From: Roseicyclus sp.
GTDB taxonomy: Bacteria; Pseudomonadota; Alphaproteobacteria; Rhodobacterales; Rhodobacteraceae
Assembly (NCBI GenBank): GCA_018401055.1
Contig: JAGYLB010000085.1
Location: 62,001 to 126,000 of the forward strand
Reading direction: 5' to 3'
Length of the DNA stretch: 64,000 nucleotides
Under the pieces are notes generated by a model, which did not search any database, was not told the origin of the DNA, and saw nothing but the letters and a program-made list of their open reading frames with translations. Positions 12,179 to 31,309 of the stretch are shown in pieces. The position numbers were made by a program, and so were the translations under genes. Positions within the stretch are counted from its first letter, which is position 1, and each line of letters opens with the position of its first letter.

Positions 12179-12682
12179 GTGGCGGCCTGCGTTTCCTGCG
12201 GAAAAAAAATCGGCTTTCTTGAAGGCGGCGGCGGTCGTTGCGGCACCTGTTTCGCTGTGCACTTTGCAAACGCGAAAGGAGATACCTCGGAAAGTTTGCA
12301 AGTCGCAACCGCAGAGGCTGCGGCGCGTCGGACAGCTATCGATGCCATCCTTGTCACCACCGAGATGCAGCCCGACATTCACATCCGCAAGCGCCTCACC
12401 ATCGTGACCGCCGAGGTTGCTTACGGCATGAACGTCTTCAAGGATCTCTTCGCGGGCGTCCGGAACATCGTTGGGGGCAGGTCCGAGGCAATTCAGAATA
12501 CGATGCGAGACGCGCGCGAAACTGTCCTTTACGAGCTCAAGCGAGAGGCTCATGCTCTGGGCGCGAATGCCGTCATCGCCGTCGATCTCGACTACACCCA
12601 GATCGGCGACGGAGGGTGGAACATGGTCCTGCTTGTCGCATCGGGCACCGCCGTCGTCGCCGACATCGGCTCCCCTCAATAG
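12179..12682 (+). CDS. YbjQ/UPF0145-like protein with N-terminal zinc ribbon
   Basis: 167 aa starting with GTG at 12179; a clear GGAGG eight bases upstream decides this start. Residues 4-24 form a short zinc ribbon with two Cys-x-x-Cys pairs (CVSCGKK, CGTCF). The rest resembles the YbjQ/UPF0145 heavy-metal-binding-like domain, with EVAYGMNVFKDLFAG, ARETVLYELKREAHALGANAV and a glycine-rich end. Function of the family is not established. It converges with the MarR gene and overlaps it by 7 bases. Confidence 0.72.
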   Translation: MAACVSCGKKIGFLEGGGGRCGTCFAVHFANAKGDTSESLQVATAEAAARRTAIDAILVTTEMQPDIHIRKRLTIVTAEVAYGMNVFKDLFAGVRNIVGGRSEAIQNTMRDARETVLYELKREAHALGANAVIAVDLDYTQIGDGGWNMVLLVASGTAVVADIGSPQ

Positions 12683-13173
12683 ATATACCGGATCTGATCC
12701 GTCCAATACCGTTCCACCCGCTTGAGCGAGTGGTTCACCCTGTCGATTCCGTCGGTGCCCAGAACCCCGTGCTTTTCCAGTCCTTCGGCATGGCGGGCGA
12801 ACAGCGCCCCCACAACCTCACGCACATGGCGCCCCTTTTCGGTCAGGCGCACGCGCACAGACCGTCGGTCGATCTCGCAGCGCTGGTGGTGCATGTAGCC
12901 CATCTCCACCAGCTTCTTGAGATTGTAGCTGACGTTGGACCCCTGATAATAGCCGCGCGACTTCAACTCCCCCGCGGTCACCTCATGCTCGCCGATGTTG
13001 AACAACAACAGCGCCTGCACCGCGTTGATGTCGAGGATGCCAAGCCGTTCGAATTCATCCTTGATGACGTCGAGCAGCAGACGGTGCAACCGCTCCACCA
13101 GCGACAGCGATTCGAGATAGCCGGTCAGAAATGCCGACCGGGTCGTCGCAAGGGGCGCGTGCATACTCATCAT
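12676..13173 (-). CDS. MarR-family transcriptional regulator
   Basis: 165 aa winged-helix regulator. The DNA-binding core is visible as EHEVTAGELKSRGYYQGSN (recognition helix region, about residues 62-80) followed by the wing RCEIDRRSVRVRLTEKGR. It resembles the LdtR/PetP-type MarR proteins common in alphaproteobacteria, but the target cannot be inferred. Start is ATG at 13173 or the next ATG at 13170. Confidence 0.82.
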   Translation of the reverse strand: MMSMHAPLATTRSAFLTGYLESLSLVERLHRLLLDVIKDEFERLGILDINAVQALLLFNIGEHEVTAGELKSRGYYQGSNVSYNLKKLVEMGYMHHQRCEIDRRSVRVRLTEKGRHVREVVGALFARHAEGLEKHGVLGTDGIDRVNHSLKRVERYWTDQIRYIY

Positions 13174-13249
13174 GGGCTCCGCATCTTGGTGCTTCGCCCC
13201 CTGACTGGCACAAGATTCGCAAAGATTGAGTTAAGCGCGCGACAAAAAC

Positions 13250-13516
13250 TCAGCGCCCTGCCATGAACTCGGTCCTGAGCCGGTCGAGAAACGGCTTGTG
13301 CGCGCCGGGCGGTTCAGCCTGCCCGGACACCCATTGGTAAAGGTCCTGATCGGCCTCGGCCATCACCGTCTCGAAAGCGTCCAGCGTCGCGTCATCGGCC
13401 GTTTCCAGATGCCGCTCGGCCCAACCGCCCAGGATCAGGTCCATTTCCTTGATCCCCCGGTGCCCCGCCCGCATCCGCAAGCGCTTGAGCCGGATCTCGC
13501 GTGTCTCGTTCGTCAT
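13250..13516 (-). CDS. sdhE: Succinate dehydrogenase assembly factor SdhE
   Basis: 88 aa, the normal length of SdhE/SDHAF2, which promotes covalent FAD attachment to SdhA. The RGxxE motif is HRGIKEMDLILGGWAE (residues about 19-34), followed by acidic helices and LYQWVSG. It lies 2 bases downstream of the small HTH gene and is likely co-transcribed with it. Confidence 0.9.
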   Translation of the reverse strand: MTNETREIRLKRLRMRAGHRGIKEMDLILGGWAERHLETADDATLDAFETVMAEADQDLYQWVSGQAEPPGAHKPFLDRLRTEFMAGR

Positions 13517-13518
13517 CT

Positions 13519-15249
<1,731 letters not shown>

Positions 15250-15253
15250 ACCG

Positions 15254-16177
15254 TCAGCCGCGAAAGACCCTGAGCGCGGCCAGCGCCGCATCCCACAGGT
15301 CGAAGACCCGCATCACCAGATGCTCGCGCGCGGCGAAGCCCGCGCCGGGCGCGCCCCTGCGTTCCGTCTCGACCAGCCGCAGCAGACGCACCAGCGAGCG
15401 GCGGTGCAGGCCCATCCGGACCTGCACGGGATCGGCAAGCGCCCCCGCAAAGGCCGTGACCGTAGACCCCAGCAGCAACAGCCCCGCAAAACTCGCCACG
15501 ACAAGGCCGGGCGAAGGGCCAACAGGGAACACGTCATACCAAAGCCCGCCCAGCCGGTCGCCCAAGGGGAAATCGGCGACAGCCGCAGCCTGCGCGACCG
15601 CCCCGGCCACGCCCGGCGCCATGGAGATCATGCCCGGCGTCAGCGCCTGGAACACCAGCCCACCTACGACCAAGGTGATCAGCGCGGTGACGATCTCGGC
15701 CATGGCCGAGCGTGTGCCGCTGTAATCGCCCAGCGCGCCGGCGACCCGGTCGGCCATCGCCTGCGCGGCCTCGACACTGCCGCAGCGCAGGACGGCGGCA
15801 CGAAAGGACGGGGCGGCAAGGATCGCATGCGCAATCTCTACCCGGTCGCGGGGAATGCCCCCGGGCAGCGGCACCTCCAACAGTTCGAGCAAAACAGCGG
15901 CCTCGACGCGCGCGGCCACCGCCGTCCGCATCACGATACGCCGCCCGCGCAACCAAGCCGCAGCATGCCGCAACCCGACCCGACCCAAAACCCAAGCCAG
16001 GAGCCGCGACAGCACCAGCACCGGTGACAGCATGACATTCGCGGGCGCTCGCGCGATGTCCCAGCCCAAAGCCGCGCGGTGCAGCCGCAGGCTGCCGGGC
16101 CATCTAAACTGCCGCGCGACAAACCCGTCGATGCGGGCGTTCGGGTCAGTGCCAAAGGCGGGCGGCTGAGCGCTCAT
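15254..16177 (-). CDS. DUF6635 family membrane-associated protein
   Basis: 307 aa, intact. N-terminus RIDGFVARQFRWPGSLRLHR, then several hydrophobic stretches (about residues 150-180 and 215-245). It resembles a family found mostly in Rhodobacteraceae (DUF6635), with no known role. Its ATG at 16177 overlaps the stop of the upstream small membrane gene (ATGA), so the two are coupled. The stop lies 4 bases from that of aspC, convergent. Confidence 0.65.
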   Translation of the reverse strand: MSAQPPAFGTDPNARIDGFVARQFRWPGSLRLHRAALGWDIARAPANVMLSPVLVLSRLLAWVLGRVGLRHAAAWLRGRRIVMRTAVAARVEAAVLLELLEVPLPGGIPRDRVEIAHAILAAPSFRAAVLRCGSVEAAQAMADRVAGALGDYSGTRSAMAEIVTALITLVVGGLVFQALTPGMISMAPGVAGAVAQAAAVADFPLGDRLGGLWYDVFPVGPSPGLVVASFAGLLLLGSTVTAFAGALADPVQVRMGLHRRSLVRLLRLVETERRGAPGAGFAAREHLVMRVFDLWDAALAALRVFRG

Positions 16178-16473
16178 GTCAGGCTCAGCCCCGCCATCAA
16201 GACCAGCACCGCGCCGCGCGCCAGATCGGCCTGCACATGTGGCCCGCCGTGGCGTGCAGCCGACCGGAAGACCCCCACCGTGGCCAGCGCATTGAACGGC
16301 AGCGACAGGCCGTAGCCCACCAGCAGCGCCGGGATCGGATGGTCGATCGTGATGAGCCACAGAAAAACAAGGCTGCTCGACACGTTCACGACCAGACCGC
16401 CCATCACGGCCCAGGTCCAGAAGGCATCGCCCAGCGGCAGGTCGCCCCGCCAGAGATCGGTGATCTTGCGCAT
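16174..16473 (-). CDS. Small membrane protein, three predicted helices
   Basis: 99 aa starting MRKITDLWRGDLPLGDAFW; an upstream ATG at 16518 would add 15 residues. Hydrophobic segments lie at about residues 18-40, 47-65 and 82-98. No named family was recognised, though similar proteins occur next to DUF6635 genes. ATGA overlap with the next gene suggests a two-gene operon. Confidence 0.55.
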   Translation of the reverse strand: MRKITDLWRGDLPLGDAFWTWAVMGGLVVNVSSSLVFLWLITIDHPIPALLVGYGLSLPFNALATVGVFRSAARHGGPHVQADLARGAVLVLMAGLSLT

Positions 16474-16614
16474 GGCCGAGATATGATACCGCTGCCCGCT
16501 CTGCGCCAGTGCCGACACACTGGGGGGCCGATATCTTTCCGGTCATTACCGCATCTTGACGTCTTGCCCGGCCGTGGTGCCTGCTGCTTGGCACGCAGTG
16601 TAACGAGGACAGGC

Positions 16615-17877
16615 ATGACGATCCCCTCCCATGTTCTGGACATGCTCAGACGCGTGCGCGCACGCTTCCTCGACACCCCGCTCGCCGACCGGATGCTGCC
16701 CAGCGACGCGGAATTCACCACGCTCAGACCCGTGCGCAAGGCAACCGAGACCTCGGTCGCGCGCTATTGGGACCGGCTGATGGGTAAAGCCACCCCGAGG
16801 ATCGGGCGGTGATGGCCGATGCTCAGACGATGGCCGATCCGGGGCGCTTCGACGCCAATATCGAAAATTTCATCGGCACGGTGAAACTGCCCGTGGGCAT
16901 CATCGGCCCGCTCAGGATCAACGGGCTGAACGCGCATGGCGACTACCATGTACCGCTGGCCACGACCGAGGCCGCGCTCGTCGCCTCCTACGCGCGGGGC
17001 GCGCTGGCGGCCACGAAATCGGGGGGCATGTCGACCGCGATCCTCTATGAAGGCGTCTTGCGCACGCCCGCCTTCGTGCTCAACACCCTTCTCGATGCGG
17101 GGCTCTTCGTGGAATGGGTCGTCACCCACATCGAAACGCTCAAAACCGCCGCCGAGGCGACAACGCGGCATGGCAAGCTGGTGTCGCTGGAACCCGTGAT
17201 CGACAACAACGTGGTTTTCCTGATTTGCCGCTATACCACGGGCGATGCGGCGGGTCAGAACATGGTCACCATCGCAACCAATGCTTTGTGCGAAGCCATC
17301 GTGGCGGCCTGCCCCGTCCCCCTCAAGGCGTGGTATATCGAGGGCAATTTCTCGGGCGACAAGAAGGCCTCGTTTCTGGGTCTTGTCACCGGGCGCGGGC
17401 GGAAGGTTTCCGCATCCGTCACGCTGAAGGCCGCAGTCGTGGAAAAGACGCTGGGCACCACCGTGCAGGCGATGCTCGATTACGGGCAGGTCGCCAATCT
17501 GGGCGCGCATCTGTCGGGCCAGATCGGCGCGCAGGCGCATTTCGCCAATGGCTTGGCCGCGCTTTACATCGCCACCGGGCAAGATGCCGCCTGCGTCGCC
17601 GAAAGCGCCATGGGGATCACAAGGATGGAGGCGCGCGGCGACGACCTGTTTTGCAGCGTCACCATGCCCAACATCCTTGTGGGTTCCGTCGGCGGCGGCA
17701 CGGGCCTGCCCAGCCAATCGGCGGGGCTCAACATCCTTGGTCTCAAGGGCACGGGGCACGGGCTGCGCTCGCCGAAGTGGTGGCGGCCACCTGTCTATGC
17801 GGGAAATCTCCATTGTGGCCGCCATCGCGGCGGGGCATTTCACGCGCGCCCATGAAACGCTGGCCCGCCTGAGATGA
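16615..17877 (+). CDS. Class I hydroxymethylglutaryl-CoA reductase, frame-broken
   Basis: Four-electron NADPH reductase of HMG-CoA giving mevalonate in known members. ATG 16615 follows CGAGGAC. All four catalytic residues of class I enzymes are in place: Glu in TTEAALVAS (16968-16970), Lys in GDKKAS (17361-17363 region), Asp in ATGQDAA (17583-17585) and His in RAHETLAR (17851-17853). IENFIGTVKLPVG and GSVGGGTGLPSQS are also typical. Frame breaks lie near 16780-16808, 17757-17775 and 17800-17810. It overlaps the UbiA gene by ATGA. Most alphaproteobacteria make isoprenoids through the MEP route, so its purpose here is open; no other mevalonate gene is in the window. Confidence 0.87.
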
Positions 17878-18777
17878 CGCCCCAAACCCTCTGGACCTAC
17901 CAGCGGGAACGCTTCCGCTGGCCAAGACTGCGCCGCTTCTGGCGGTGTTTTCGGCCGCCAGCATCGCGGTGTCGGCTGAGATGGCGGGGCGCCCCTGCCC
18001 GACCCCGGCGCCTTTGTCGCGGGCTTCGTCGTGGCGCTCCTGATCTTCTTCCAGATGCGCGTCTGCGACGAATGGAAAGACCTCGACGACGACCGCCGCC
18101 TGCGCCCCGACCGCCCGATCCCGCGCGGGCTGATCTCCCTCAAGGCCGTGCTGTCGCTCGGGGCGGCGTCGCTGCCGCTGACCGCACTCGCCGCTTGGGC
18201 GTGGCATCCCCCGACCCTCTGGCTATTGGCGCTGGTCTGGCTCTGGCTTGCCGCCATGACCTTCGAGTTCGGCTTTCCCGCATGGCTCAAGGCGCGCCCG
18301 ATCCTCTACCTCGTCAGCCATATGGCGATCATGCCCCTGATCGACCTGTTGCTCACGGGCATGGAATGGCTGCCTGCAGGCGCACCCGCCGCAGGCCTCT
18401 TGCTGTTCCTCGCCCTCTCCTTCGTCAACGGCTGCGTGCTGGAAATCGGGCGCAAGCTCTGGGCGCCCGAGGCCGAGATCCCGGGCGTCGACACCTATTC
18501 CTCGCTCTGGGGACCGTGGCGGGCGGCGCTGGTCTGGTCGGGCTGCGTCGCGGTGTCCTTTGCGCTCTTGATGGGTGTGGCGGTGGTGACGGGGGCGGTT
18601 TGGGTCACGCTGGCCCTTGGCGGGGCGATGCTGGTCCTCTGCCTTGGCGCGGCCACCCGCTACGCCCGCGCGCCGACACTTGCTGCGCAAACCCGGATGG
18701 ACGCGGTCGCGGGCCTCTGGGTCTTTGCCTGCTACGCACTGGCAGGCTTCGCGCCCCTAGCCCTGAGGCTCATCTGA
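17874..18777 (+). CDS. UbiA-superfamily prenyltransferase-like membrane protein, frame-broken
   Basis: Polytopic membrane protein of about 300 aa. The first aspartate motif of UbiA enzymes is recognisable as CDEWKDLDDDRRLRPDRP followed by IPRGLIS; about eight hydrophobic segments follow. The second aspartate-rich motif is weaker (EIPGVDTYSSLWG). Family members transfer prenyl groups to aromatic or glycerol-type acceptors. The N-terminal 50 codons change frame twice, near 17913 and near 17990. It is tied to its neighbours by an ATGA overlap before and TGATG after. The prenyl donor and acceptor are unknown. Confidence 0.72.
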
Positions 18778-21192
18778 TGTCCCACATCATCCCACAGGCC
18801 GAAGCCACCGAGGTCGCACAGGTCGGCGGCAAGGCCGCAGCGCTCGCCCATCTGGCGACCCATGGCTTCGCGCCGCCTACTTTTTTCGTCATCCGCGCCG
18901 AAGCCTTCGAGGGCGACGTCCCCTCACCGGCCTGCCCGACGCGCTCGCCACCCTAGGCCCCGGCCCCTATGCCGTCCGCAGTTCCGCGCGTGCCGAGGAT
19001 GGGGCGGAGCACAGCCATGCGGGCCAGTTCGACACACAGCTCAACGTTGCGCCCAACGGCGTGGAGCAAGCCGCCCGCGCCGTCTGGGCCTCGGGCTTTG
19101 GCGAGACGGTGGCGACCTATCGCGCGCTGAAAGCCGGTGGCACAGCCGAAGGCCCCGCCGTCATCGTCCAGCGCATGATCGCCGCGCGCGCAGCGGGCGT
19201 CGCCTTTCCGCCGATCCGGTGTCAGGGCGGCGCGACCGTGTCGTGATCTCGGCCATCGCGGGTCTGGGCGACAGGCTCGTCTCGGGCGAAGAGGATGGCG
19301 AGGACTGGACCGTCAACGACATAGCCACCTGCACCACAGAACCCACTGTCCTGACGGCGGCGGAGGCGTTGGCCATCTCCGCTCTAGCCCGGCGCGCCGA
19401 GGCCACATTCGGCACCCCGCAAGACGTGGAATGGGCGCTGGACACAGACGGCCTGCACATCTTGCAATCCCGCCCCATCACCACGCCCTTGCTGCCCATG
19501 CCAACGCCCGACGGCGCGCTCACCATCTTCGACAATTCCAACATCGTCGAAAGCTATCCGGGCCTTGTCAGCCCGCTCACCTATTCCTTCGCCGTCCATG
19601 TCTATGGCCGCGTCTACCGCGCCTTCGTCTCCCTGCTTGGCGTGCCCGAGACGACCATCGCCACCAATTCCGCCGTTTTCGGCAACATGCTGGGGCGTAT
19701 CGACGGCCGGGTCTATTACAACCTCGTCAACTGGTATCGGGCGCTGGCGCTCCTGCCCGGTTTCTCGCTCAATCGGACCTATATGGAGACGATGATGGGC
19801 GTGGACACGCCCATGCCGGGGGAGGTGACGGACAACATCGGCCCACCACCCGCGCAGGGCGCTGCCAAGGCGCTGGAATACCTGCGGCTGGCGCGCGCCG
19901 GTCTGGGCCTGATCTGGCAGGCGATCCTTCTGCCCTCGCACCCGGCGACGGTTCTACGAGCGGCTGAACGCGGCGCTCGACAGCGGCTTCGATCCCGACA
20001 CCGCCAACCCGACAGCACTTGCCACGGAGTACCGCAAGATCGAGGCGACGCTGCTGGACCGCTGGGATGCGCCGCTCGTCAACGATTTCCTGTGCATGAT
20101 CGCCTTTGGTGCCTCTCGGAACCTGATGGCGCGCTGGCTGGGCGAGCGGGGGCTGGCGCTGCACAATGACGTGATGATCGGTCAGGGCGATATCGTCTCG
20201 GCCGAACCCGCGCGGCGCATCGCGGAGCTTGGCCAGATGGTGCGCGCGGCGGGGATCGAGGCGGAACTGGCCGAACACTGTCTGGCGGCGCTGGAGGCGC
20301 ATCCGGAGATCGCCCGCGCGGTGGAAAGCTACCTTGCGAAATTCGGCGACCGCTGCACCGAGGAATTGAAGCTTGAAAGCCTGACGCTGCGCGACGACCC
20401 CGCCAGCCTGATCGCCGCCATCCTCGCCCATGCGGCACGCGCCGCACAAGCACAGCATGCGACCACCGCCCCCGACTGGGGGGCGCTGTTCCCCAACCCT
20501 CTCAAACGCAGCATCGCCCGCGCCATCATGGGCTGGACCAAGGCGCGCGTCCGCGACCGCGAAAACCTGCGGTTCGAGCGCACCCGCATCTTCGGCCACG
20601 CCCGCCGCGTGTTCCTCGCGCTTGGCCGTGAGTTCGCAGCGCGCGGCCTGATCGAGACGCCCCGCGACGTGTTCCACCTGACCGTGCCCGAAGTGCTGGG
20701 CGCGGTTGAGGGTTTCGGCCTCTCGGGCGACCTCAAATCGCTGATCGCACTGCGAAGGGCTGAAGCCACGGCCGCCGCCGCCCGCCCCGACCCGCCCGAG
20801 CGGATCGAGATGCGCGGCCCCGCAATCGCGCCCACATGGGCCGAGATCGCAACCACCCGCGACGACAGCACAAGCCAAAAGGCCACCGGCTGTTCGGCGG
20901 CCGCGTCACGGCCAAGGCCCGCGTCATCCGCGACCCGCGCGCGCAATCGCTGGCGGCAGGCGAGATCCTTGTGGCGCGCCACACCGATCCGGGCTGGATC
21001 GCGGTCTTTTCCAACGCATCCGCCATCGTGGTCGAGCGCGGCTCGCTGCTGTCGCATTCGGCCATCGTTGCACGCGAACTGGGCATCCCTTGCGTCGTCG
21101 GCCTCAAGGGCGCGACGACATGGATCACCGATGGCGAAACCGTCACCGTGGACGGCACAACCGGAGAGGTGGAGCGTCATGGCGAGCTCTGA
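18777..21192 (+). CDS. PEP synthase/rifampin-phosphotransferase-like enzyme, frame-broken
   Basis: About 800 aa. The N-terminal ATP-grasp (PPDK-N) part shows VGGKAAALAHLA, VRSSARAEDG, GQFDTQLNV, VIVQRMIAA, GLGDRLVSGE and LQSRPIT. A long middle part has NIVESYPGLVSPLTYSF. The C-terminal swivelling domain has the phospho-accepting His in SLLSHSAIVAREL (His codon 21055-21057). There is no obvious PEP-binding barrel, so it may phosphorylate another acceptor, as rifampin phosphotransferase does. Breaks lie near 18915-18950, 19205-19215, 19945-20090 and 20820-20880. It overlaps the DUF3419 gene by 14 bases. Confidence 0.78.
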
Positions 21193-22278
21193 GATCGAGA
21201 CCCGCGCCGCCTTCGACCACATCCGCTACGCGCAATTGTGGGAAGACGCCGACGTTCTGACCGCCGCCTTGGGGGACAAGGCAGGCGGCACGCTGGTGTC
21301 GATCTGTTCGGCGGGCGACAACGCGCTGGCGATGCTCACGCTCCACCCCGCCAAGGTGGTGGTCGTCGACCTCTCGCCCGCGCAGATCGCCTGTCTCCGG
21401 CTCAGGATCGGGGCCTATTCCAGATTAAGCCATCCCGAATTCCTCGAACTGATGGGCGCGCGCCCCTCGACCCAACGCCGCGCGCTGCTGGGGCGCGCGA
21501 CCGCCACGCTCGACGAAGAAACCCAAGCCTTCTGGACCGCACTGGCCGAGGACGTGGACCGACATGGCGCAGGCGGTGTCGGCAAGTTCGAGCGCTATTT
21601 CCGCATCTTCCGCACACGCCTTCTGCCGCTTGTCCATTCGCGGGCCACTATCGCCGATATCTTCACCCCGCGCCCGCCCGCCGCCCGCAGCGCTTTCTTT
21701 GAAACCCGTTTCGACACGTGGCGTTGGCGGCTCTTGCTCAACCTCTTCTTCTCGCGCTTCGTCATGGGCCGCATGGGCCGAGACAAGGCGTTCTTCGGCC
21801 ATGTGGAGGGTAGCCCTGCCCAGCATGTCGCTCGCCGCATCCGCCACGCGGGCGTCGACACCGACCCGAGCGCCAACCCCTACCTGCACTGGATCATGAT
21901 CGGCACCCATGGCGCGGCCCTGCCGATGGCGTGGCGGGCGGAACACTACGACACGATCCGCGCGCGGCTCGACCGGCTCGATATCCGCCCCGGATCGCTC
22001 GAAGCTTTCGTCGGAACAGGCGAAAAGGCGGACGGCTTCAACCTGTCCGACATTTTTGAGTACATGTCGCCGGGCGTTTTCGAACAGGTCTATGCCAGCA
22101 TCCTCGACGCCGCCAATCCAAGCGCCCGTCTGGTCTACTGGAACATGATGGCCCCCGCCGCGTGCCCAAGCCCCTTGCCCCGCGCGTGCAAACCCTGACC
22201 GCGCTGGAGGACGAGTTGAAAGCGCGCGACATGGCGTTTTTCTACTCCGACTTCGTGATCGAGGAGGTCAAGGGGTGA
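21179..22278 (+). CDS. DUF3419/BtaA-like aminocarboxypropyl-transferase-like protein
   Basis: About 365 aa. The N-terminus IRYAQLWEDADVL, the SAM-binding-type SICSAGDNALAML and VVVDLSPAQIACL, and later SPYLHWI-type NPYLHWIMIGTH and LSDIFEYMSP match the DUF3419 family, which includes BtaA (transfer of the 3-amino-3-carboxypropyl group of SAM to diacylglycerol in betaine lipid synthesis). No BtaB partner is adjacent. One frame break near 22150-22165; the true end is the TGA at 22276-22278, overlapping the next gene's GTG. A lipid-type acceptor is inference. Confidence 0.75.
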
Positions 22279-23600
22279 GCGCAGCCCTGCAAGTCGCCAC
22301 CGCCTTTGGCTCGGTCGGCGTGCTCCTGGGCCTCATGGCGCTGGTGCGCACGGCCGCCCAGCGCCGCCACATCAACGCCGAGGTCAGCCGCAAGCTGATC
22401 CATGTCTCCACCGGCCTCTATGCGCTGATCCTGCCTTGGCTCTTTCCTGACCGCTGGCCGGTCTACATGCTGATCGGCCTGACGCTGGTGGCGATGGGCG
22501 CGCTGCGCCTGCCCGCCCTTTCGGGCAGCCTCGGCCAGACGCTGCACGCGGTCGAGCGGCGGTCCTACGGGGATTTCCTGCTCGCCCTTGCCGTCGGGCT
22601 CTGCTTCTTCCTGTCGAACGGCGACCCGCTTCTCTATATCCTGCCCATCGCGGTCCTGACGCTGGCCGATGCCGCCGCCGCCCTTGCGGGTACCACCTAC
22701 GGCCGCCGCCGCTTTGCCGTCGAGGCAGGCCAGAAAAGCGTCGAGGGCACGGCGGTGTTCTTCACCGTCACGCTCCTGATCGCGCTGGTTTGCCTGATGT
22801 TCCTGTCAGACCTGCCGCCTGCCAATATCCTGACGCTCGCCCTGATGATCGCCGCCTTCGGCGCGCTGGTCGAGGCGCAAAGCTGGCGCGGTTTCGACAA
22901 CCTGTTCTTGCCGCTCGGCCTTCTGGTGTTCCTTGCGATCCACGCCAAGAGCGGACTTTTCGACCTGCTGACGCTAGCCGCGCTGTTCTTCGTCACCCTG
23001 GTGGGCTTTCGCGCGCTGGGGCCGCGTTTTGGCCTGACGCGCCATTCGGCTCGGGTGCATGTGGTGGCGATGTTCCTGATCCTCGCCGTGACCGAGGCGC
23101 AAAACGCGCTTTTGCCTGCGAGCGTCCTTGTCGCCCATGCCTGGGCCAGCCTGCGCAACCCCAGCGCCGAGGATTACGGCGATCTCGACATCGTGGCGGG
23201 ACTTGGCCTCTTCAGCTTCGGCTGGCTGGCTGTGGGGCTGGCTGTGGGCTGGAACGCCGTCGCCTTCTACGGTCTGACGGCGATGGGGTTTGCCATGGGG
23301 CTGGCGGCACTGGCGCTGCACGGGCGGCTGATCCTTGTGCCGATCATCGCCGCGTTCTTCTTCGGCCTGCGCGAGGGGGTGGCGGCGCTGAACCCCGAGG
23401 GCACGCTCTGGGCCGAACCGCTCTGGCCCGCAGCGCTGGCCTGCCTTGCGCTATGCGCGGGCGCGGCGGCACTGGCTCCAGGCTTTTTCGCCCGCGACCG
23501 GGTGTTGAAACTGACCGCCCTGTCGCTGATCGTGCCCCTTGGCCTTTATGCCATGCTCGTTTTGCAAGGGCCTGCCATCCCCGCCGGAGGTGCCGGATGA
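22275..23600 (+). CDS. Dolichol/phytol kinase-like (CTP-transferase fold) membrane protein
   Basis: Intact 441 aa with about twelve hydrophobic segments. The N-terminal half resembles the SEC59/VTE5 (dolichol and phytol kinase) and phosphatidate cytidylyltransferase fold: RRHINAEVSRKLIHVSTG near residue 35 and QKSVEGTAVFF near residue 155, the latter being the usual nucleotide-binding motif. The C-terminal half is an additional hydrophobic domain without a recognised family. GTG start overlaps the DUF3419 stop (GTGA) and the stop overlaps the GNAT start (ATGA). A polyprenol or lipid alcohol kinase is the best guess. Confidence 0.7.
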   Translation: MSAALQVATAFGSVGVLLGLMALVRTAAQRRHINAEVSRKLIHVSTGLYALILPWLFPDRWPVYMLIGLTLVAMGALRLPALSGSLGQTLHAVERRSYGDFLLALAVGLCFFLSNGDPLLYILPIAVLTLADAAAALAGTTYGRRRFAVEAGQKSVEGTAVFFTVTLLIALVCLMFLSDLPPANILTLALMIAAFGALVEAQSWRGFDNLFLPLGLLVFLAIHAKSGLFDLLTLAALFFVTLVGFRALGPRFGLTRHSARVHVVAMFLILAVTEAQNALLPASVLVAHAWASLRNPSAEDYGDLDIVAGLGLFSFGWLAVGLAVGWNAVAFYGLTAMGFAMGLAALALHGRLILVPIIAAFFFGLREGVAALNPEGTLWAEPLWPAALACLALCAGAAALAPGFFARDRVLKLTALSLIVPLGLYAMLVLQGPAIPAGGAG

Positions 23601-24440
23601 CCCACGAGACCCTCAAGACCGAGGGCGCATCGCTGACCCTCCACCTCGACGGCCCGGAGGGGACGGTGCGCCAGCCGCCACCATCGGCACAATCGCCTTC
23701 CGCGACGAAACGGCTTTGCGCCGGGCTGCTGGCCGAGGCGCTCGCCCGCATCCGCGCCGCAGGCCTGACCCGTGTGCTCGGGCCGATGGCGGGCGACACC
23801 TGGCGCAGCTACCGTTTCGTCAGCGAAAGCGACGGCTCGAAACCTTCCTACTGGAACCGACCAACCGCCCCCATGAGCCCGCCATTTTCGCCGCGGCAGG
23901 CTTCATCCCCGTCGCGCGCTATTTCTCGGCCCGGATGCGGCTCGCTGACATCGACCCCACGCCGCCCCCGCCACCGAGGCCTTAACCATCGAGCCATGGG
24001 ACGGCGCAAAGCCCGAGGCGCTCATCCGCGAGGTCTTCGCCCTCTCGACCGGGGCCTTTGCCGGCAATGCCTTCTACACGCCGATCACCGAGGATGATTT
24101 TCTGGCCATGTATCGCCCCGTCATGCCGATGATGCGCCCCGATCTGATCTTTTTCGCCCGCCGCCCCGACCGCACGCTCGCGGGCTATCTCTTCGCCATC
24201 CCAAATTACGCCGAGGGGCTGGAGACCAAGACCATCATCCTCAAGACCTACGCCAGCCTTGTGCCCGGCGCGGGCCGCCACCTTGTCCACGCCTGCCACA
24301 GCGCCGCCCGCGCGCTGGGGTTCGAGACGGTGATCCATGCGCTCATCCACGACGCCAACCGGTCCGCCGAGCGCAGCCGCATGGAAGGCGCGACCGTCTT
24401 CCGCCGCTACGAGCTTCTGGGCCTCAAGCTCGATGTCTGA
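23597..24440 (+). CDS. GNAT-type acyltransferase-like protein, frame-broken
   Basis: About 280 aa. Recognisable blocks are EALARIRAAGLTRVLGPMAGDTWRSYRFV, AAGFIPVARYFSARM and, in the C-terminal frame, a GNAT-like core: FARRPDRTLAGYLFAIP, KTYASLVPGAGRHLVHACHSAA and HDANRSAERSRMEGATVFRRYELLG. Three or four frame breaks lie between 23665 and 23990. It sits inside the overlapping gene row. The acceptor is unknown. Confidence 0.6.
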
Positions 24441-25861
24441 CCTGCTGCGCGACTTCGCCGCCGCCGTCGCGCGCCACCCCGACCGCACAGCCCTGGTCGA
24501 GGCCTCTGGTCGCGCCGTCAGCTTTGCGGAGTTGCAGGCCCGCAGCCACGCCTTCGCCCGCGCTTGGGCCGTGCGCGGCATCGCACCGGGCGACCGGGTT
24601 CTGCTCGCCATGCCCGTCAGCGCCGATCTATATGCCGCGCTTGCCGCCCTGTGGTCGCTTGGCGCCACGGTCGTTCTGCCCGAACCCGCGATGGGTCTGC
24701 GCGGGCTCATCCATGCCGCCCGCACGACCCGCCCGCGCGCCTTTGCAGCGCCGGGGCCTACAGCCTGCTCTGCCTCGCCCTGCCAGCGCTCTGGCCCCTG
24801 ATCCACCTGCGCCCCACGACCGCAAACGCCCCCCCCTTCGACCGCTCCCTGCCCGCAGACAACGACATCGCGCTGATCTCCTTCACCTCCGGCACGACGG
24901 GCGCACCCAAGGCAATCCCGCGCAGCCACGCCTTTCTCGCCGCCCAGCACCGCGCCATAGCCCCCCTGCTCGACAGCCCGGGCAATGAGCGCGACCTCGT
25001 CGCCTTCCCGGTCTTCGTGCTGATCAATATCGCCAGCGGCCGCACCTCCGTCCTGCCCGACTGGAAGATGTCGCGCCTCGCCCGCCTTTCGCCCGCCCGC
25101 CTTGCCACGCGCATCGCCACGCAAGCCGTCACCTGCGCCCTGCTGCCGCCTGCGCTATGCAAGACGCTGGCCCGCGCGCCCGCGACGCCCACGCTCCACA
25201 CGATCTTCACCGGCGGCGGCCCGGTCTTTCCTGACCTCCTCGACCGGCTTGCAGCCAGCCACCCCGGCCTGCGCATCGCTCTGCGTCTACGGCTCTGACC
25301 GAGGCCGAACCGATCGCCCATCTCGACGCCGCCCAGATCACGCCCGAGGACCGCGCCGCGATGAAGGCGGGCGCGGGCCTGTTGGCAGGCCACCCTGTCC
25401 CCGGCCTCGCCCTGCGGCTGCAAGACGGCGAGATCATCGTCGCCGGCGCACATGTGAACGCGGGCTACCTCGACCCCACGCAAGACGCCGCGACCAAGAT
25501 CCGCGAGGGCGCGCGGATCTGGCACCGCACCGGCGACGCCGGGCGCCTTGATGACGCGGGCCGCCTCTGGCTCACGGGCCGCCACGGCGCCGAGGTGCGC
25601 ACCACAACCGCCATCCTCCACCCTTTCGCCATCGAGGTCGCGGCCCGCAGCTGGCCCGGCGTACGGCAGGCAGCGCTGATGCCGGGCGGTGGCACGCCTT
25701 GCCTCGTCATCGAAGGCCAAACGCATCACCTGCCCGATTGGCAGGAACGTGCCGCGACCCTTGGCCTCGTCCGCGTCACACCCATCCGCCACATGCCGAT
25801 GGACCGCCGCCATGCGTCCAAGATCGACCGCGCGGCGCTGACCCGTCGCGGGTTTGGCTGA
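24433..25861 (+). CDS. AMP-forming acyl ligase, OleC-like, frame-broken
   Basis: Adenylate-forming enzyme of about 475 aa. The phosphate-binding loop is ISFTSGTTGAPKA, followed by PRSHAF; the A8-type motif is WHRTGDAGRLDDAGRLWLTGR. Blocks such as DLVAFPVFVLINIASGRTSVLPD and TIFTGGGPVFPDLLDRL resemble OleC-type ligases (beta-lactone synthetase group) more than ordinary acyl-CoA synthetases. Breaks lie near 24755-24770 and 25280-25290. It overlaps the GNAT gene by 8 bases. Whether it makes a thioester or a lactone cannot be told. Confidence 0.72.
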
Positions 25862-25977
25862 TCGCCCGCGTCATCGCAGCCCCTTGCCCCACACCTGCCG
25901 CCGCGCCACCAAACGACATGCCCCACGAGACCCCCTAAGCCGCCTTCTGGAACCGCGTCGCCCGCCGCTATGCAGCC

Positions 25978-26544
25978 ATGCCCATGCGCAACCCGCAAGC
26001 CTGGGAGGAGACGCTGGCGCGCACCCGCGCCCTGCTGCCCCCCGACGCGCATGTGCTTGAGCTTGGCTGTGGCACCGGCTCCACCGCCCTGCGCCTCGCC
26101 CCCCTTGCCGCCCACTACATCGCAACCGATGACGCCGCGGAAATGATCGCCATCGCCGCTGAGCGCAGCGCCGAAATCCCCAGCCTCCACCCTCTCCAGG
26201 CCCGGACCGGTGACAGCAGCCTGCCCCAAGGCCCCTTCGACGTCCTCCTCGCCTTCAACCTTCTTCACCTGCTGCCCGACCTGCCCAAAGCCCTGTCGGA
26301 GGCCCGTTCCCTCCTCAAACCCGGCGGTCTCCTCATCACCAAGACCCCCTGCCTCGGCGGGCCTTGGCTGGCCCTCTGGCCGCTCGTCCGCGTGCTTGGC
26401 CTGTTCGGCAAGGCCCCTCCGCTCCGCTTCTACTCGCCCTCAGCGCTCGAACGCCGCGTCATCGCAGCAGGCTTCATGATCGAGGCCCGTGCGGACCTGC
26501 CCCGCCGCCCGCCCTCGCGCTTTCTCGTCGCCCGCAGACTCTGA
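25978..26544 (+). CDS. Class I SAM-dependent methyltransferase
   Basis: 188 aa from ATG 25978. Motif I is VLELGCGTGSTAL, motif II IATDDAAEM, motif post II FDVLLAFNLLHLL and motif III LKPGGLLITKTPC. The family usually begins earlier (FWNRVARRYAAMP). That sequence is present upstream in the same frame from ATG 25918, but a TAA at 25936-25938 interrupts it, so either the start has moved or the TAA is an error. It closes the putative isoprenoid/lipid cluster. Confidence 0.75.
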   Translation: MPMRNPQAWEETLARTRALLPPDAHVLELGCGTGSTALRLAPLAAHYIATDDAAEMIAIAAERSAEIPSLHPLQARTGDSSLPQGPFDVLLAFNLLHLLPDLPKALSEARSLLKPGGLLITKTPCLGGPWLALWPLVRVLGLFGKAPPLRFYSPSALERRVIAAGFMIEARADLPRRPPSRFLVARRL

Positions 26545-26593
26545 CCCTTCTCTGTTTCGAAAACATCCCGGGGAGGCGCCCGGAACGGGCGAC

Positions 26594-26608
26594 GGGGGCA
26601 GAGCCCCC
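26594..26608. terminator. Hairpin between the cluster and the repair genes
   Basis: A perfect stem GGGGGC/GCCCCC with a three-base loop lies between the methyltransferase stop and the exonuclease start. There is no T tract, so termination activity is only a guess; it does mark the boundary between two gene groups. Confidence 0.3.
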
Positions 26609-26645
26609 ATCTTGCGCCGCCCCGGCGAAAGCCTACCTTCATCGC

Positions 26646-27668
26646 ATGGTCCTGACCTTCACCGAGGCCGGCATCTATTGCCCGGCCGCCGACGCCTACA
26701 TCGACCCATGGAAACCGGTCGACCGGGCGCTGATCACCCATGGCCATTCCGACCACGCTCGCTGGGGGCATCGCCGCTATCTCTGCACCGAACCCGCAGC
26801 TCCTGTGATCCGCCACCGGCTGGGCGATATATCAGTCCAGACCATCGGCTACGGCCACCGCCTCAGCATGGGCGCGGCGACCATCAGCTTTCACCCCGCG
26901 GGCCACGTGCCCGGCTCGGCCCAGATCCGGGTTGAGGTGGCGGGCGAGGTCTGGGTCGTCTCGGGCGATTACAAGACCACGCCCGATGGCCTGTCGGAAC
27001 CCTATGAGCCCGTGCGCTGCCACGCCTTCATCTCGGAATGCACCTTCGGCCTGCCGATCTACCGCTGGCCCACCGAGGCCGAGCTGGCCCGCCAGATCAA
27101 CGGCTGGTGGGCCGAGACCCGCGCCAAGGGCCAGACCCCCGTGCTCGGCGTCTATGCCCTTGGCAAGGCCCAGCGTGTCTTGCGGCTGCTCGACCCGTCG
27201 ATCGGCCCGATCCTGACCCATGGCGCTATCGAGGCCACGAACGCGGTCCTGCGCGCGCAGGGTATCTCGCTGCCGCCCACCATTCAGGTGACGGCCGACC
27301 TCGACCGCAAGGCGCATCGCGGCGCGATGGTGCTGGCGCCACCCTCGGCGCTGGGATCGGCCTGGATGCGGGCCTTCGGTCCCGTCTCCACCGGCTTTGC
27401 CTCAGGCTGGATGCAGTTGCGCGGCGTGCGCCGCAGGCGGGCCGCCGACCGTGGCTTTGTCGTCTCCGACCATGCCGACTGGGCCGGGTTGAACAGCGCC
27501 ATCGCCGCCACGGGTGCGGCGCGCGTCTTTGTCACCCATGGCAATACCGCGCAATTCGCGCAATGGCTGGCCACGCAGGGCTATGAGGCAGGCGTCGTCC
27601 AGACCGAGTTCGGCGACGAAAGTCTTGACGACACACCGCTCCGAACCGAGGAGGTGAGCGCCCCGTGA
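26646..27668 (+). CDS. Ligase-associated DNA exonuclease (metallo-beta-lactamase fold)
   Basis: Intact 340-aa metallo-beta-lactamase/beta-CASP protein of the mRNA 3'-processing-factor-like group that is usually encoded next to an ATP-dependent DNA ligase. The metal-binding motif HGHSDHARWGH lies near residue 31; further His and Asp ligands are in FHPAGHVPGS and VVSGDYKTT; VSDHADW is near the C-terminus. The same locus carries the ligase 2 kb downstream. Its GTGA overlap couples it to the hydrolase gene. Confidence 0.88.
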   Translation: MVLTFTEAGIYCPAADAYIDPWKPVDRALITHGHSDHARWGHRRYLCTEPAAPVIRHRLGDISVQTIGYGHRLSMGAATISFHPAGHVPGSAQIRVEVAGEVWVVSGDYKTTPDGLSEPYEPVRCHAFISECTFGLPIYRWPTEAELARQINGWWAETRAKGQTPVLGVYALGKAQRVLRLLDPSIGPILTHGAIEATNAVLRAQGISLPPTIQVTADLDRKAHRGAMVLAPPSALGSAWMRAFGPVSTGFASGWMQLRGVRRRRAADRGFVVSDHADWAGLNSAIAATGAARVFVTHGNTAQFAQWLATQGYEAGVVQTEFGDESLDDTPLRTEEVSAP

Positions 27669-28557
27669 ACGGTTCCGACCTGACCCTCCCCGACCACTTC
27701 TGGCGTTTCGTCGCGCGCTGGATCGACCGCCCGGTGCTTGCGGCCGTCGCCTCGCAGCGCGTCCTGCGGGTTCTCTTCGCCTTTTCCGCCCGCATGGGCA
27801 GTGCGCGTTACCTGCGGGGCCACCATGACCCGCGACCGCCACGGCGCGCTCTGGCTGACGCCGCAGGATGTGGCCCCCGACGCGCCCGTGCTGATGTACC
27901 TGCACGGTGGCGGCTTCACCATAGGCAGCCCGCGCACCCATGCGGCGCTGGCCGCCCACCTTGCCGCCCATGCCGGGATGCGCGCCTGTATCCTCGCCTA
28001 CCGGCTTGCCCCCGAGCACCCTGCCCCAGCCGCGCGCACCGACGCCATCGCCGCCTATGCCCGATTGATCGACGAGAACACGCCGCCTGCCGCGCTCGCG
28101 GGCGACAGCGCAGGCGGCAATCTGGCACTTCTCGTGGCCCAACACGCCCGCGACGCAGGGCTCCCGCAGCCACGTGCGCTCGCCCTCATCGCGCCCGCCG
28201 CGGATCTCACCGGCGACATCGCCGCCCGCTTTGCCGCCGCCCCGGACGAGATCTTGATCCCGCCCGCATGGCCGCGGCGCATCAAGCAGGCCTATCTGCC
28301 CGGCATCGATCCCGCCGATCCGACCATCTCGCCGCTGTCAGGCGACCTGAGCGGCCTGCCCCCACCCTGATCCACGCTTGACTGCCGAGGAGGCGCTGGC
28401 CGACGATGCGCGCCGCCTGGCCGAACGGATGGACGCGACCGAGCTGAAACTCTGGCCCGGACTGCCCCATGTCTGGCACCTTCACGCCGGCCGCGCCCCC
28501 GCCGCCGACCGGGCGCTGGCGGAACTGGGCGCATTCCTGAAGGCAAGGATTTCCTGA
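27665..28557 (+). CDS. Alpha/beta hydrolase, HSL (family IV) type, frame-broken
   Basis: About 297 aa esterase-like protein. Oxyanion-hole motif YLHGGGFTIGSP, nucleophile elbow AGDSAGGNLAL and a C-terminal LPHVWH region that supplies the catalytic His. It starts with GTG at 27665 overlapping the exonuclease stop. Frame breaks lie near 27815-27830 and near 28365-28375. The substrate is unknown; it is an odd insertion within a repair gene row. Confidence 0.8.
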
Positions 28558-28595
28558 CACGCGCCCGACATGCGGTCGTGCTATTCTCCGGCACC

Positions 28596-29684
28596 ATGGA
28601 TATCCGCATCACCACCTTCAACATCGAATGGATGGTCTCGGTCTTCGGGGGCCGCTGGGCCGATTGGGACGGCACCATGCCCGACGCCTTCCCCGGCCGG
28701 CGCCTGGGCGACATCACCCTCGACCCGATCCCAGACATGCCCGAACTGATCGCGCGGATCACCGGCGTGATCGACGCCATCGACCCCGATATCCTGTGCG
28801 TGCAGGAAGGCCCACCACGCCGCGACCAGATGGAGGCCTTTGTCGACCGGCACCTTGGCGGACGCTTCGACGTCGTCACCGCCAATAGCCAATGGCAGAC
28901 CAACCATGTGCTGATCCGCAAGGGGTTGGCGCTCGACTACACCGCAGATGACCCCAAAGACCGCGACACGACCCTGCGCTGGTCGGGCGGCCCATGGTAT
29001 CCTTGGGGCCTTGTCGCGGCAGAAGTGCGCAAGCTGCAGCGCTACCACCGCCAGCCCGTACGGCTGATGCTGACGCCAGACGCCGCCGACCCGGACGCGC
29101 CGCAGTTGGAGCTGATCTCGCTCCACACGAAATCGAAATTCTCCAAGCTGCGCAGCCGCCAGCAGTGGGAGGCGCGCGAGGTGGCGGCCGTGCTGGACGC
29201 ACTCAACGTGCGCCAGAAGCTTTCGGCCGAAATCGCGCTTCTGCGCCGCCATATCGAAGCGCAGATCGACGCGGAGGGACAAGATCACGCGATCCTCGTG
29301 CTGGGCGACCTGAACGACGGGCCTGCCGCCGACCTTCTCGAAGGGGAATTCCTGCTCCACAACATCATCGACCAGCTGGTCGGCACGATCCTCGCGCCCG
29401 AAACCCGGATGCGCCACGCGATGACGGACGAGGTTCTGGCGACCTCGACCACCACGCGGTTCCACAACCCGCTTGCGGGGGGTGAGCTGACCGAGGAACT
29501 GATCGACCACATGCTGATCTCGGACGGGCTTTCGACCGGGCGCTCGGGCGTCTTGTTCCGCCCCAGCAGCTGCGCCGTCGACCGCGCCGCATGGGAAGCG
29601 CAGAATGACGAGGCCGACGATCAGGATATCAGGCAATTGCGCCCCTCCGATCACCTTCCGGTCTCGGGCATCGTTGCGTTCTGA
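28596..29684 (+). CDS. Endonuclease/exonuclease/phosphatase family protein
   Basis: Intact 362 aa from ATG 28596 (a GTG at 28578 would add six residues). EEP-fold motifs are TFNIEW, LCVQEG, LGDLNDGP and the C-terminal SDHLPVSG, the usual metal and catalytic sites of the ExoIII/DNase I fold. Located between the ligase-associated exonuclease and the DNA ligase, a role in DNA repair is likely but not proven; phosphodiesterase or phospholipase activity is also possible for this fold. Confidence 0.82.
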   Translation: MDIRITTFNIEWMVSVFGGRWADWDGTMPDAFPGRRLGDITLDPIPDMPELIARITGVIDAIDPDILCVQEGPPRRDQMEAFVDRHLGGRFDVVTANSQWQTNHVLIRKGLALDYTADDPKDRDTTLRWSGGPWYPWGLVAAEVRKLQRYHRQPVRLMLTPDAADPDAPQLELISLHTKSKFSKLRSRQQWEAREVAAVLDALNVRQKLSAEIALLRRHIEAQIDAEGQDHAILVLGDLNDGPAADLLEGEFLLHNIIDQLVGTILAPETRMRHAMTDEVLATSTTTRFHNPLAGGELTEELIDHMLISDGLSTGRSGVLFRPSSCAVDRAAWEAQNDEADDQDIRQLRPSDHLPVSGIVAF

Positions 29685-29708
29685 GCGCGCGGGCCTAGCT
29701 TGGGCGAC

Positions 29709-31309
29709 ATGAAGGATTTCGCCGCCCTCTTCACCGCAATCGACCAGACCACGAAAACCGGCGTCAAGACGGCGGCGCTGGCCGCGTATTTCCGCACCGC
29801 ACCCGAGGATGACCGTCTCTGGACCGTGGCGCTCCTGTCGGGCCGTCGCCCGCGGCGGTCGATCACGACGACGCGGCTGCGCGAATGGGCGGCCGAACGC
29901 GCGGGCATCCCGCTCTGGCTCTTCGAGGCCTGCTACCCGGTCGTAGGCGACCTGTCCGAGACCATCGCGCTGGTCCTGCCGGAACCCACGACCCGGATCG
30001 AGCGGTCCTTGACCGGCTGGATCACGGCGCTCCGCGCGCTCGACCGGGCCGAGGATGCCCAGCGCAAGGATTTCGTGCTGGCCGCCTGGGACGGGCTGGA
30101 GCCGACGGAACGCTTCGTCTTCAACAAGCTCATCACCGGCGGCTGGCGGATGGGGTTTCCCAGAAACTGATGACCCGCGCGCTGGCGCAGGCGACCGGCA
30201 TCGACGAGGCCGACCTGACCCACCGCCTGATGGGCGACTGGTCGCCCGAGCGCGTCACATGGGCCAGCCTGATCGAGGCCCCCGACCCCACCGCCGACCT
30301 GTCGCGCCCCTATCCTTTCAGCCTCGCCTACCAGTTGGAAGATGCGCCCGAGGCGCTTGGCCCCGTCACCGACTGGCTGGCCGAACACAAATGGGACGGC
30401 ATCCGCGGCCAGCTGATCTTGCGCGCTGGCACCCACCACCTCTGGTCGCGCGGCGAAGACCTGATGACCGACCGCTTCCCGGAACTGGCACAGCTGAAGG
30501 ACTTCCTGCCCGATGGCACCGTGATCGACGGCGAGGTGCTGGCCTGGGACCATCCCGCCGACCGCCCGATGGGGTTTTCCAGCCTGCAGCCCCGGATCGG
30601 CCGCAAGAGCGTGCCGAAAAAGCTCCTGACCGAGGCGCCGGTGATCGTCATGGCCTATGACCTTCTGGAATGGCAGGGCCGGGATGTCCGCGAGCGTCCA
30701 CTGGGCGAGCGGCGCGCCACGCTGGCGGGCGCTTTTGTCCAACCTGCCCCCGGGCCGTGCCCCTGCGCCTCTCCGCCCCTGTCGCGGCGGAGGGCTGGGC
30801 GGGCATGGCGGCGGCTCCGCGGCAGGTCGCGCGACATCGGGGCCGAGGGGCTGATGCTCAAGCGGCTGTCCGCCCCCTACCGCGCAGGACGGCGCAAGGG
30901 CGATTGGTGGAAATGGAAGCTCGACCCGCTCACCATCGACGCAGTGATGATCTATGCGCAGGCGGGATCGGGGCGGCGGGCCACGCTCTACACCGATTTC
31001 ACCTTTGCCGTGCGCGACGGCGACCGCCTCGTGCCCTTCACCAAGGCCTATTCCGGCCTGACCGATGCCGAATTCCGCGAGATCACCGCATGGGTGCGGA
31101 AGAACACAACCGAGCGCTTCGGCCCGGTGCGCGGCGTGCGCCCCGAACATGTCTTCGAGATCGCCTTCGAGGGCATTCAGGCCAGCCCGCGCCACAAATC
31201 CGGCGTTGCCCTGCGGTTCCCCCGCATGGCCCGTTGGCGGCGCGACAAGCCGGTCTCCGAGGCCAATACGCTCGACGACCTCAAGGCGATGCTGGGGCGC
31301 TACGGCTGA
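29709..31309 (+). CDS. ATP-dependent DNA ligase, frame-broken
   Basis: About 530 aa. The N-terminal DNA-binding region (FVFNKLITGG) is followed by the adenylation site EHKWDGIR, with the Lys accepting AMP, then IDGEVLAW, AYDLLEW, EGLMLKR and WWKWKLDPLTID, and an OB-fold C-terminus. The frame breaks near 30160 at GGGG (one more G restores MGVSQKL) and near 30735-30830. It is the ligase of the exonuclease-ligase module. ATG 29709 is chosen over TTG 29700. Confidence 0.9.

Follow-up and report, generated by a model that had tools for sequence, protein, structure and literature searches.

The DNA analysed here, which we call the window, is a stretch of 64,000 nucleotides from a Roseicyclus sp. 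contig (JAGYLB010000085.1). Between positions 16615 and 26544 it holds eight genes, all on the + strand, which a first-pass annotation made by a model from the letters alone had joined into one operon for an isoprenoid or lipid pathway. The gene coordinates and the overlaps quoted between neighbouring genes were confirmed in the sequence, and the single operon was borne out by the surveys described below. Judged from their protein families, the first seven of the genes seem to encode an undescribed biosynthetic pathway.

The first gene (16615..17877) encodes a homologue of 3-hydroxy-3-methylglutaryl-CoA (HMG-CoA) reductase (HMGR) with a class I fold and a variant pocket, recognised by PF00368 and by alignment. 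It is followed by genes for a UbiA-family membrane protein (17874..18777; PF01040), a dikinase resembling PPDK and phosphoenolpyruvate (PEP) synthase with ATP-grasp and His swivel domains (18777..21192; PF01326 and PF00391 in the closest relative, and PDB relatives), and a DUF3419 protein, a BtaA paralogue predicted to be an S-adenosylmethionine (SAM) 3-amino-3-carboxypropyl transferase (21179..22278; PF11899). Next come a VTE5/SEC59-like polytopic membrane protein, a putative CTP-dependent lipid-alcohol kinase (22275..23600; homologue names and a weak likeness of its model), a tandem-GNAT acyltransferase (23597..24440; predicted model of the Roseicyclus protein) and an AMP-forming acyl ligase of the OleC/fatty-acid-CoA-ligase-like kind (24433..25861; PF00501). 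The eighth gene, for a SAM methyltransferase (25978..26544; PF13489), lies outside the conserved core. Pfam matched HMG-CoA_red, UbiA, PPDK_N, DUF3419, AMP-binding and methyltransferase domains in the open reading frames (ORFs) of the window, and additionally the PEP-utiliser His domain in the intact dikinase of Roseicyclus mahoneyensis (locus L001). This is the closest relative found, with 87% DNA identity over 18.7 kb and open frames. The family calls of the first-pass annotation were mostly correct.

Conservation and distribution of the operon

An alignment of 15 VTE5-like sequences (the window and 14 relatives), used to scan genomes, gave 49 loci. When these were searched with the L001 proteins (tblastn), the order HMGR-UbiA-PPDK-DUF3419-VTE5-like-GNAT-ligase was found on one strand in 47 of them, some cut, and the two others (L008 and L023) are truncated, their sequence starting within the operon at the edge of a contig. 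In 44 of the 49 loci every one of the seven genes is longer than 90% of its median length, and the remaining five (L003, L008, L016, L020 and L023) are cut by contig ends. The median of every one of the six junctions is an overlap, from -4 to -14 nt, and junctions of at most 20 nt occur, in operon order, in 46/47, 47/47, 48/48, 49/49, 49/49 and 47/49 loci. Pairwise distance matrices of the genes correlate at 0.88-0.96 across 44 loci, values of a kind that shared ancestry alone raises. The loci range from Rhodobacteraceae to Roseibium and Rhodoplanes. The VTE5-like protein itself has 354 matches at E <=0.001 among 7997 candidates scored, and the names Roseicyclus, Ruegeria, Roseovarius, Shimia and Yoonia appear among the best 120 of these 354.

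Because the VTE5-like protein had been the bait that defined all 49 loci, so that operons without its gene were invisible, other baits were used, and surveys with PPDK, HMGR and DUF3419 partly remedy this. A PPDK orthologue is present in 13 of 196 Rhodobacterales genomes, including the centre genome of the survey (G001), always at more than 1000 bits, with the next match at 120 bits; in all 13 genomes an HMGR gene is found on the contig of the PPDK gene, some 0.9-1.15 kb from it. HMGR, UbiA, PPDK, DUF3419 and VTE5 were contiguous in each of the six PPDK-bait loci read, three of them new places and three (L054, L057 and L059) already among the 49. The DUF3419 protein of Rhodoplanes, used in the same manner, found 5 of 297 Hyphomicrobiales genomes, its own included, and all four new loci (L132-L135) carry the seven genes in order. 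A plasmid of Roseinatronobacter sp. S2 (one of 72,556 plasmid records) also bears annotations for the genes from UbiA through the ligase, in a stretch that ends at the record edge before HMGR. No relative was found among viral contigs.

This gene order is far beyond chance, and the operon is real and conserved; its distribution is patchy, but its order is fixed. A search for the same order in other genomes had been proposed in the first-pass annotation, and the order is clearly conserved there. Conservation extends to seven of the eight genes. The methyltransferase is matched in a single one of the 49 loci, L001, and not at all in L132-L135; since it neighbours the operon in the window and L001 alone, it was dropped as a core member.

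Frame breaks in the window copy

The genes of the window are not the clean ORFs as which they had first been read: HMGR ends early, and UbiA, PPDK, GNAT and ligase are fragmented. Indels were counted against L001. Since blastn introduces many paired indels that are alignment noise, scoring was restricted to frame changes that remain net over 12 bases, which reduced 140 single events to 32 net changes, an approximate count. The operon has about 20 net frame-changing indels of 1-2 bases in 9,944 nt (2.0 per kb), distributed as 3 in HMGR, 2 in UbiA, 4 in PPDK, 1 in DUF3419, none in the VTE5-like gene, 4 in GNAT, 5 in the ligase, none in the methyltransferase and 1 in intergenic sequence. The flanks have 12 in 8,685 nt (1.4 per kb), in coding and non-coding sequence, three of them inside a downstream hydrolase gene. 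Mismatches to L001 at codon positions 1, 2 and 3 number 24, 11 and 126 in HMGR, 31, 14 and 73 in UbiA, 53, 33 and 215 in PPDK, 33, 23 and 97 in DUF3419, 40, 23 and 114 in the VTE5-like gene, 17, 15 and 66 in GNAT, and 46, 36 and 125 in the ligase, so that third-position mismatches outnumber those at first and second positions in all seven operon genes.

The somewhat higher indel density within the operon would fit a set of pseudogenes decaying in this genome. However, the flanks are affected too (12 in 8.7 kb), the third-position excess extends to every gene, and all seven frames are near full length in 44 of the 49 relatives, the remaining five being cut by contig ends. We give this explanation almost no credence, and local decay was rejected as the cause of the frameshifts on the flank indels and the third-position excess. 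Because indels also occur in flanks of similar length and the codon positions show selection, errors in the sequence are more probable than decay. The genes have been under selection, and a low-quality assembly most likely accounts for the breaks. Net indels across positions 12676-31311 also affect genes outside the operon, namely the hydrolase gene (about 27800-28380) and one spanning about 29700-31309, which by eye resembles that of an ATP-dependent DNA ligase. ORF-based readings of the window therefore need care.

The HMGR homologue and its pocket

A textbook enzyme, HMG-CoA reductase is also a major drug target. By its sequence, the operon homologue belongs to class I (PF00368, 361 bits). 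With human residue numbers transferred by alignment, the catalytic Glu559, Lys691, Asp767 and His866 are kept in all 45 operon copies longer than 350 amino acids, as are Arg590, Asp690, Lys692 and Asn755; the same 45 copies have Glu in place of Ser684, Ala in place of Lys735 and Gln in place of Asn750. The window and the copies from the four new Hyphomicrobiales loci show this same pattern, with His866 of the window lying behind a frameshift. Among the best 120 of 7165 homologues of the Rhodoplanes HMGR, the four catalytic residues are present in all 120, Glu684 in 120, Ala735 in 118 (Gly in the other 2) and Gln750 in 120. The six HMGR sequences found in the PDB, several of which belong to one enzyme, keep Ser, Lys and Asn at 684, 735 and 750, as does an HMGR from a mevalonate cluster of Shimia. 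The alignment has a one-residue gap near 735, and no lysine was seen nearby in the copies inspected. Against the NADPH-HMGR equivalog model of NCBIfam (TIGR00533) the operon protein scores 313 bits for a cut-off of 442, which says little, since a canonical-like HMGR (from genome G101) also falls below it with 298 bits.

Two papers place Ser684 and Lys735 in the HMG pocket, and in one of them the HMG-like acid of a statin makes an ionic bond to Lys735 and a hydrogen bond to Ser684 (PMC7503714; PMC12467776). A modelling paper has Ser684 in the pocket and Lys735 among the hydrogen-bonding residues (PMC3875450). The operon HMGR looks repurposed for a substrate other than HMG-CoA, with its catalytic residues intact.

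In the first-pass annotation, HMGR was taken to feed mevalonate, which would make the operon an isoprenoid supply route, and the class I fold with all catalytic residues is in keeping with this. The marker genes do not support it. No match to HMG-CoA synthase or mevalonate-diphosphate decarboxylase (MVD) was found in 24 of 25 operon genomes, whose completeness is not stated, and DXR, of the methylerythritol phosphate (MEP) route, was matched in 24 of the 25. The exception in all three markers is Shimia sp. R10_1, in which HMG-CoA synthase and MVD were matched and DXR was not. The compact mevalonate cluster of this strain (L053, 303-6801) comprises genes for HMG-CoA synthase and the decarboxylase, ORFs that look kinase-like by eye, and an HMGR of its own, separate from that of the operon. 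Given these markers, the Shimia cluster and the loss of the HMG-pocket residues Ser684 and Lys735 in 45 of 45 copies, we rejected mevalonate supply by the operon as very improbable; the operon HMGR is probably not a mevalonate-pathway enzyme. Shimia sp. R10_1 itself has apparently switched from the MEP to the mevalonate route.

An HMGR of any kind occurs in 32 of the 196 Rhodobacterales genomes, namely the 13 with the operon, which have one copy each, of the variant type, and 19 others. Seventeen of the 19 were compared (G081 and G187 were left out): 16 have no match to the operon HMGR (phmmer), and the HMGR of G101 is the canonical-like one. The operon-type HMGR tracks the operon, since all 13 operon genomes have the variant type and the 16 do not match it. 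L070, L074 and L095 are among the loci with such an HMGR. Three of the 16 were scanned, and all three are class II degradative enzymes, which hints at mevalonate catabolism.

The other operon enzymes

UbiA prenyltransferases have two Asp-rich Mg-binding motifs. The UbiA protein of L001 is above the PF01040 cut-off and keeps the first motif as DExKDxxxD (D66, E67, K69, D70 and D74), but its second motif is replaced by ExxRK...E (E191, R194, K195 and E202), invariant in 21 sequences. None of the 7 NCBIfam models listed, among them those for chlorophyll synthase, geranylgeranylglyceryl phosphate (GGGP) geranylgeranyltransferase and EboC, is matched above its cut-off, and a PDB sequence search gave no match.

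The L001 dikinase has only the PPDK_N and PEP-utilizers domains at E <=0.1, and no C-terminal PEP/pyruvate-binding domain was matched. Its order of ATP-grasp, middle and C-terminal His domains resembles that of rifampin phosphotransferase (Pfam; PDB relatives), for which ATP-grasp and His swivel domains have been described (PMC4844700). The motif LSHSAIVxRELGIPC is conserved in an alignment of 48 sequences. With each of the 25 NCBIfam models listed, the protein scores under the cut-off, reaching 258 bits against the 999 required by the rifampin phosphotransferase (RPH) model; the RedH and PigC models are also among these matches.

The DUF3419 protein of L001 matches PF11899 at 181.8 bits for a cut-off of 28.2, and a PDB sequence search with it gave noise only. 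BtaA takes the 3-amino-3-carboxypropyl group from SAM and attaches it to a lipid (PMC3972451). Separate BtaA-like copies near a methyltransferase motif occur elsewhere in 4 of the 25 operon genomes, and no BtaB-type methyltransferase is found among the seven core genes. Plain BtaA was rejected as a label, the operon copies being distinct from the co-resident BtaA-like ones.

Some sources give homologues of the VTE5-like protein the name of phytol kinase or dolichol kinase. The protein has no meaningful Pfam match; Foldseek gave no match to its model at E 0.001, and the model weakly resembles CDP-diacylglycerol synthetase. The Roseicyclus GNAT protein has no Pfam match, yet its predicted model is a clear tandem GNAT. 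The ligase scores 162.3 bits against a cut-off of 900 and 141.9 against 850 for the NCBIfam OleC models and is also below the cut-off of NF006754; the OleC label was rejected on these scores.

Neighbouring genes and a distant cluster

P450-like ORFs stand beside the operon in 14 of the 49 loci, downstream in 3 of these, and 10 of the 14 also have a sulfotransferase-like ORF, divergently upstream. More than 2.5 kb of upstream sequence was available for 43 loci, and one member of each P450 or sulfotransferase cluster was checked with Pfam. The pair divergent from the operon (L034, 1768-4208, and similar in ten loci) suggests a hydroxylated, sulfated form of the product.

A distant alphaproteobacterium (G400; L065, 6810-13658) has genes for a dikinase, a DUF3419 protein, a UbiA-like and a GNAT-like protein, followed by a phosphatidylserine decarboxylase homologue. 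Its dikinase and DUF3419 protein are 40% and 47% identical to those of L001, and no HMGR, VTE5-like or ligase gene was found on the 14.9-kb contig (tblastn, E 1e-5, a search that also missed the GNAT-like gene). The Rhodoplanes DUF3419 protein matched 3 of 289 alphaproteobacteria in a survey of the class at E 1e-20, namely itself, G400 and G277, whose copy is followed by a methyltransferase gene and looks like a BtaA-BtaB pair. The G400 protein as query found only G400 itself in 398 Pseudomonadota genomes. DUF3419 relatives of the G400 type are numerous, and 2 of the 120 matches listed bear Acidobacteriota names. A homologue of a serine-lipid decarboxylase beside an aminocarboxypropyl transferase suggests that the amino acid, once transferred, might be turned into a lipid head group. 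In the operon of seven genes, ligase and reductase could act on the same carboxylate.

Proposed pathway and alternatives

We suggest, with moderate confidence, that the product is a prenylated amphiphile bearing a 3-amino-3-carboxypropyl (homoserine-type) group derived from SAM. It would be an aminolipid or a metabolite resembling a lipid, and a neofunctionalised thioester reductase would take part in making it. All steps of this proposal come from protein families. UbiA would join a prenyl diphosphate from the host MEP route to an acceptor, and the DUF3419 protein would add the aminocarboxypropyl group of SAM, a transfer that BtaA carries out on diacylglycerol. The tandem GNAT would acylate, plausibly on the aminocarboxypropyl amine, while lipid intermediates would be phosphorylated by the PPDK-like dikinase and by the putative VTE5-like kinase of the membrane. 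The ligase would activate a carboxylate as acyl-AMP or CoA ester, and the HMGR homologue would reduce a CoA thioester other than HMG-CoA to an alcohol with two hydrides. The prenyl and amino-lipid theme of the first-pass annotation is supported to this extent. More tentatively, we propose a previously unknown class of prenylated, N-acylated homoserine-type lipids with an HMGR-derived reductase, from an HMGR lineage that would have moved out of isoprenoid biosynthesis to reduce another CoA thioester, together with a smaller UbiA-dikinase-DUF3419-GNAT core outside Rhodobacterales and Hyphomicrobiales.

Several observations weigh against this proposal. The altered second motif of UbiA makes prenyl transfer itself uncertain. 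The presumed function of the DUF3419 protein is taken by analogy from BtaA, and the operon copies are just 22-25% identical to co-resident BtaA-like proteins in three genomes, with no significant match in a fourth; the kinase assignment of the VTE5-like protein is weak. An aminocarboxypropyl amine would sit closer to the thioester than the acid end of HMG does, and Glu684 is therefore not simply explained. As for the smaller core, the G400 UbiA-like protein is 29% identical to that of L001 over 222 residues (E 0.007) and reaches 26.3 bits for a Pfam cut-off of 34.2. Its GNAT-like protein reaches 19.7 bits for a cut-off of 20.7 and is 25% identical over 182 residues (E 1e-11), and the Rhodoplanes GNAT as query matches nothing on the contig at E 1e-5. 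The P450 and sulfotransferase neighbours and the patchy, once plasmid-borne distribution would fit a specialised metabolite equally well.

Such a specialised, non-membrane metabolite could be a meroterpenoid or an acylated amino-acid conjugate, which in some strains P450 and sulfotransferase would modify further; the PPDK-like enzyme would condense or activate, as in prodigiosin ligases. The P450-like ORFs (14/49) and sulfotransferase-like ORFs (10/49), the presence in only 13 of 196 Rhodobacterales, the plasmid copy and the sub-cut-off RedH and PigC matches speak for it. No polyketide synthase, nonribosomal peptide synthetase or terpene cyclase domain was found by Pfam among the seven genes, however, the two membrane proteins and the BtaA paralogue favour a lipid, and the RPH-like layout of the dikinase fits simple phosphorylation; we regard this alternative as somewhat unlikely. 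We find it distinctly less probable still that the operon salvages a tail, the ligase and HMGR turning an isoprenoid or fatty acid into an alcohol that the VTE5-like and PPDK-like proteins phosphorylate twice and UbiA attaches, with DUF3419 and GNAT finishing the head, in parallel to plant VTE5-VTE6-tocopherol prenylation. The enzyme types would suit a series from acid through CoA ester, alcohol and diphosphate to prenyl transfer, as would the phytol or dolichol kinase names of the membrane protein. But the pocket glutamate of HMGR does not suggest a purely hydrophobic acyl chain, and no ligase, HMGR or VTE5-like gene was detected on the G400 contig alongside those for the dikinase, DUF3419 and UbiA-like proteins.

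Significance and comparison with known systems

The first-pass annotation had recognised no known pathway in this set, and we agree: no account of the seven genes was found among the open-access papers listed, although a description elsewhere is possible. The operon is, then, real and conserved and apparently undescribed. Two claims stand on the firmest ground: the order is conserved, and the HMGR is probably not a mevalonate-pathway enzyme. If this is true, a branch of bacterial HMGR with intact catalytic residues and a changed pocket would represent a new reductase activity, and HMGR genes alone would be poor evidence of mevalonate synthesis. Should the product be a lipid, it would be a new one for Roseobacter-group bacteria and their relatives, and the gene set could be used in metagenome searches.

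The operon HMGR shares its fold family and the four catalytic residues with the class I HMGRs of the mevalonate pathway, but it differs from them at positions 684, 735 and 750 and sits in genomes of which 24 of 25 gave no match to HMG-CoA synthase or MVD. Like the prenyltransferases behind the chlorophyll synthase, GGGP geranylgeranyltransferase and EboC models, the operon UbiA has the PF01040 domain and the first acidic motif; unlike them it has the ExxRK...E second motif, which is the same in the G400 protein. The dikinase shares the ATP-grasp and swivel domains and the conserved His with rifampin phosphotransferase and PEP synthase, and the layout with the former, but its NCBIfam scores are below cut-off and it belongs to a biosynthetic operon. 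The ligase is an adenylating enzyme of the same broad subfamily as the beta-lactone synthetase OleC, yet scores far below the OleC cut-offs, and no OleA, OleB or OleD is among the seven genes. The archaeal-type ether-lipid pathway is an analogy only, through UbiA and homologues of CdsA and phosphatidylserine decarboxylase; GGGP synthase was not searched for. With the plant VTE5-VTE6-tocopherol route the operon has in common a phytol-kinase-like protein and a UbiA-type transferase, but no aromatic acceptor gene was seen in it, and DUF3419, GNAT, an HMGR homologue and a ligase are added. With the BtaA/BtaB system for the betaine lipid diacylglyceryltrimethylhomoserine (DGTS) it shares a DUF3419 protein, which by analogy is expected to modify a lipid with the 3-amino-3-carboxypropyl group of SAM. 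In contrast to BtaA, the operon protein forms a separate group, has no methyltransferase in the core and is set among genes for UbiA, dikinase, kinase-like and HMGR proteins.

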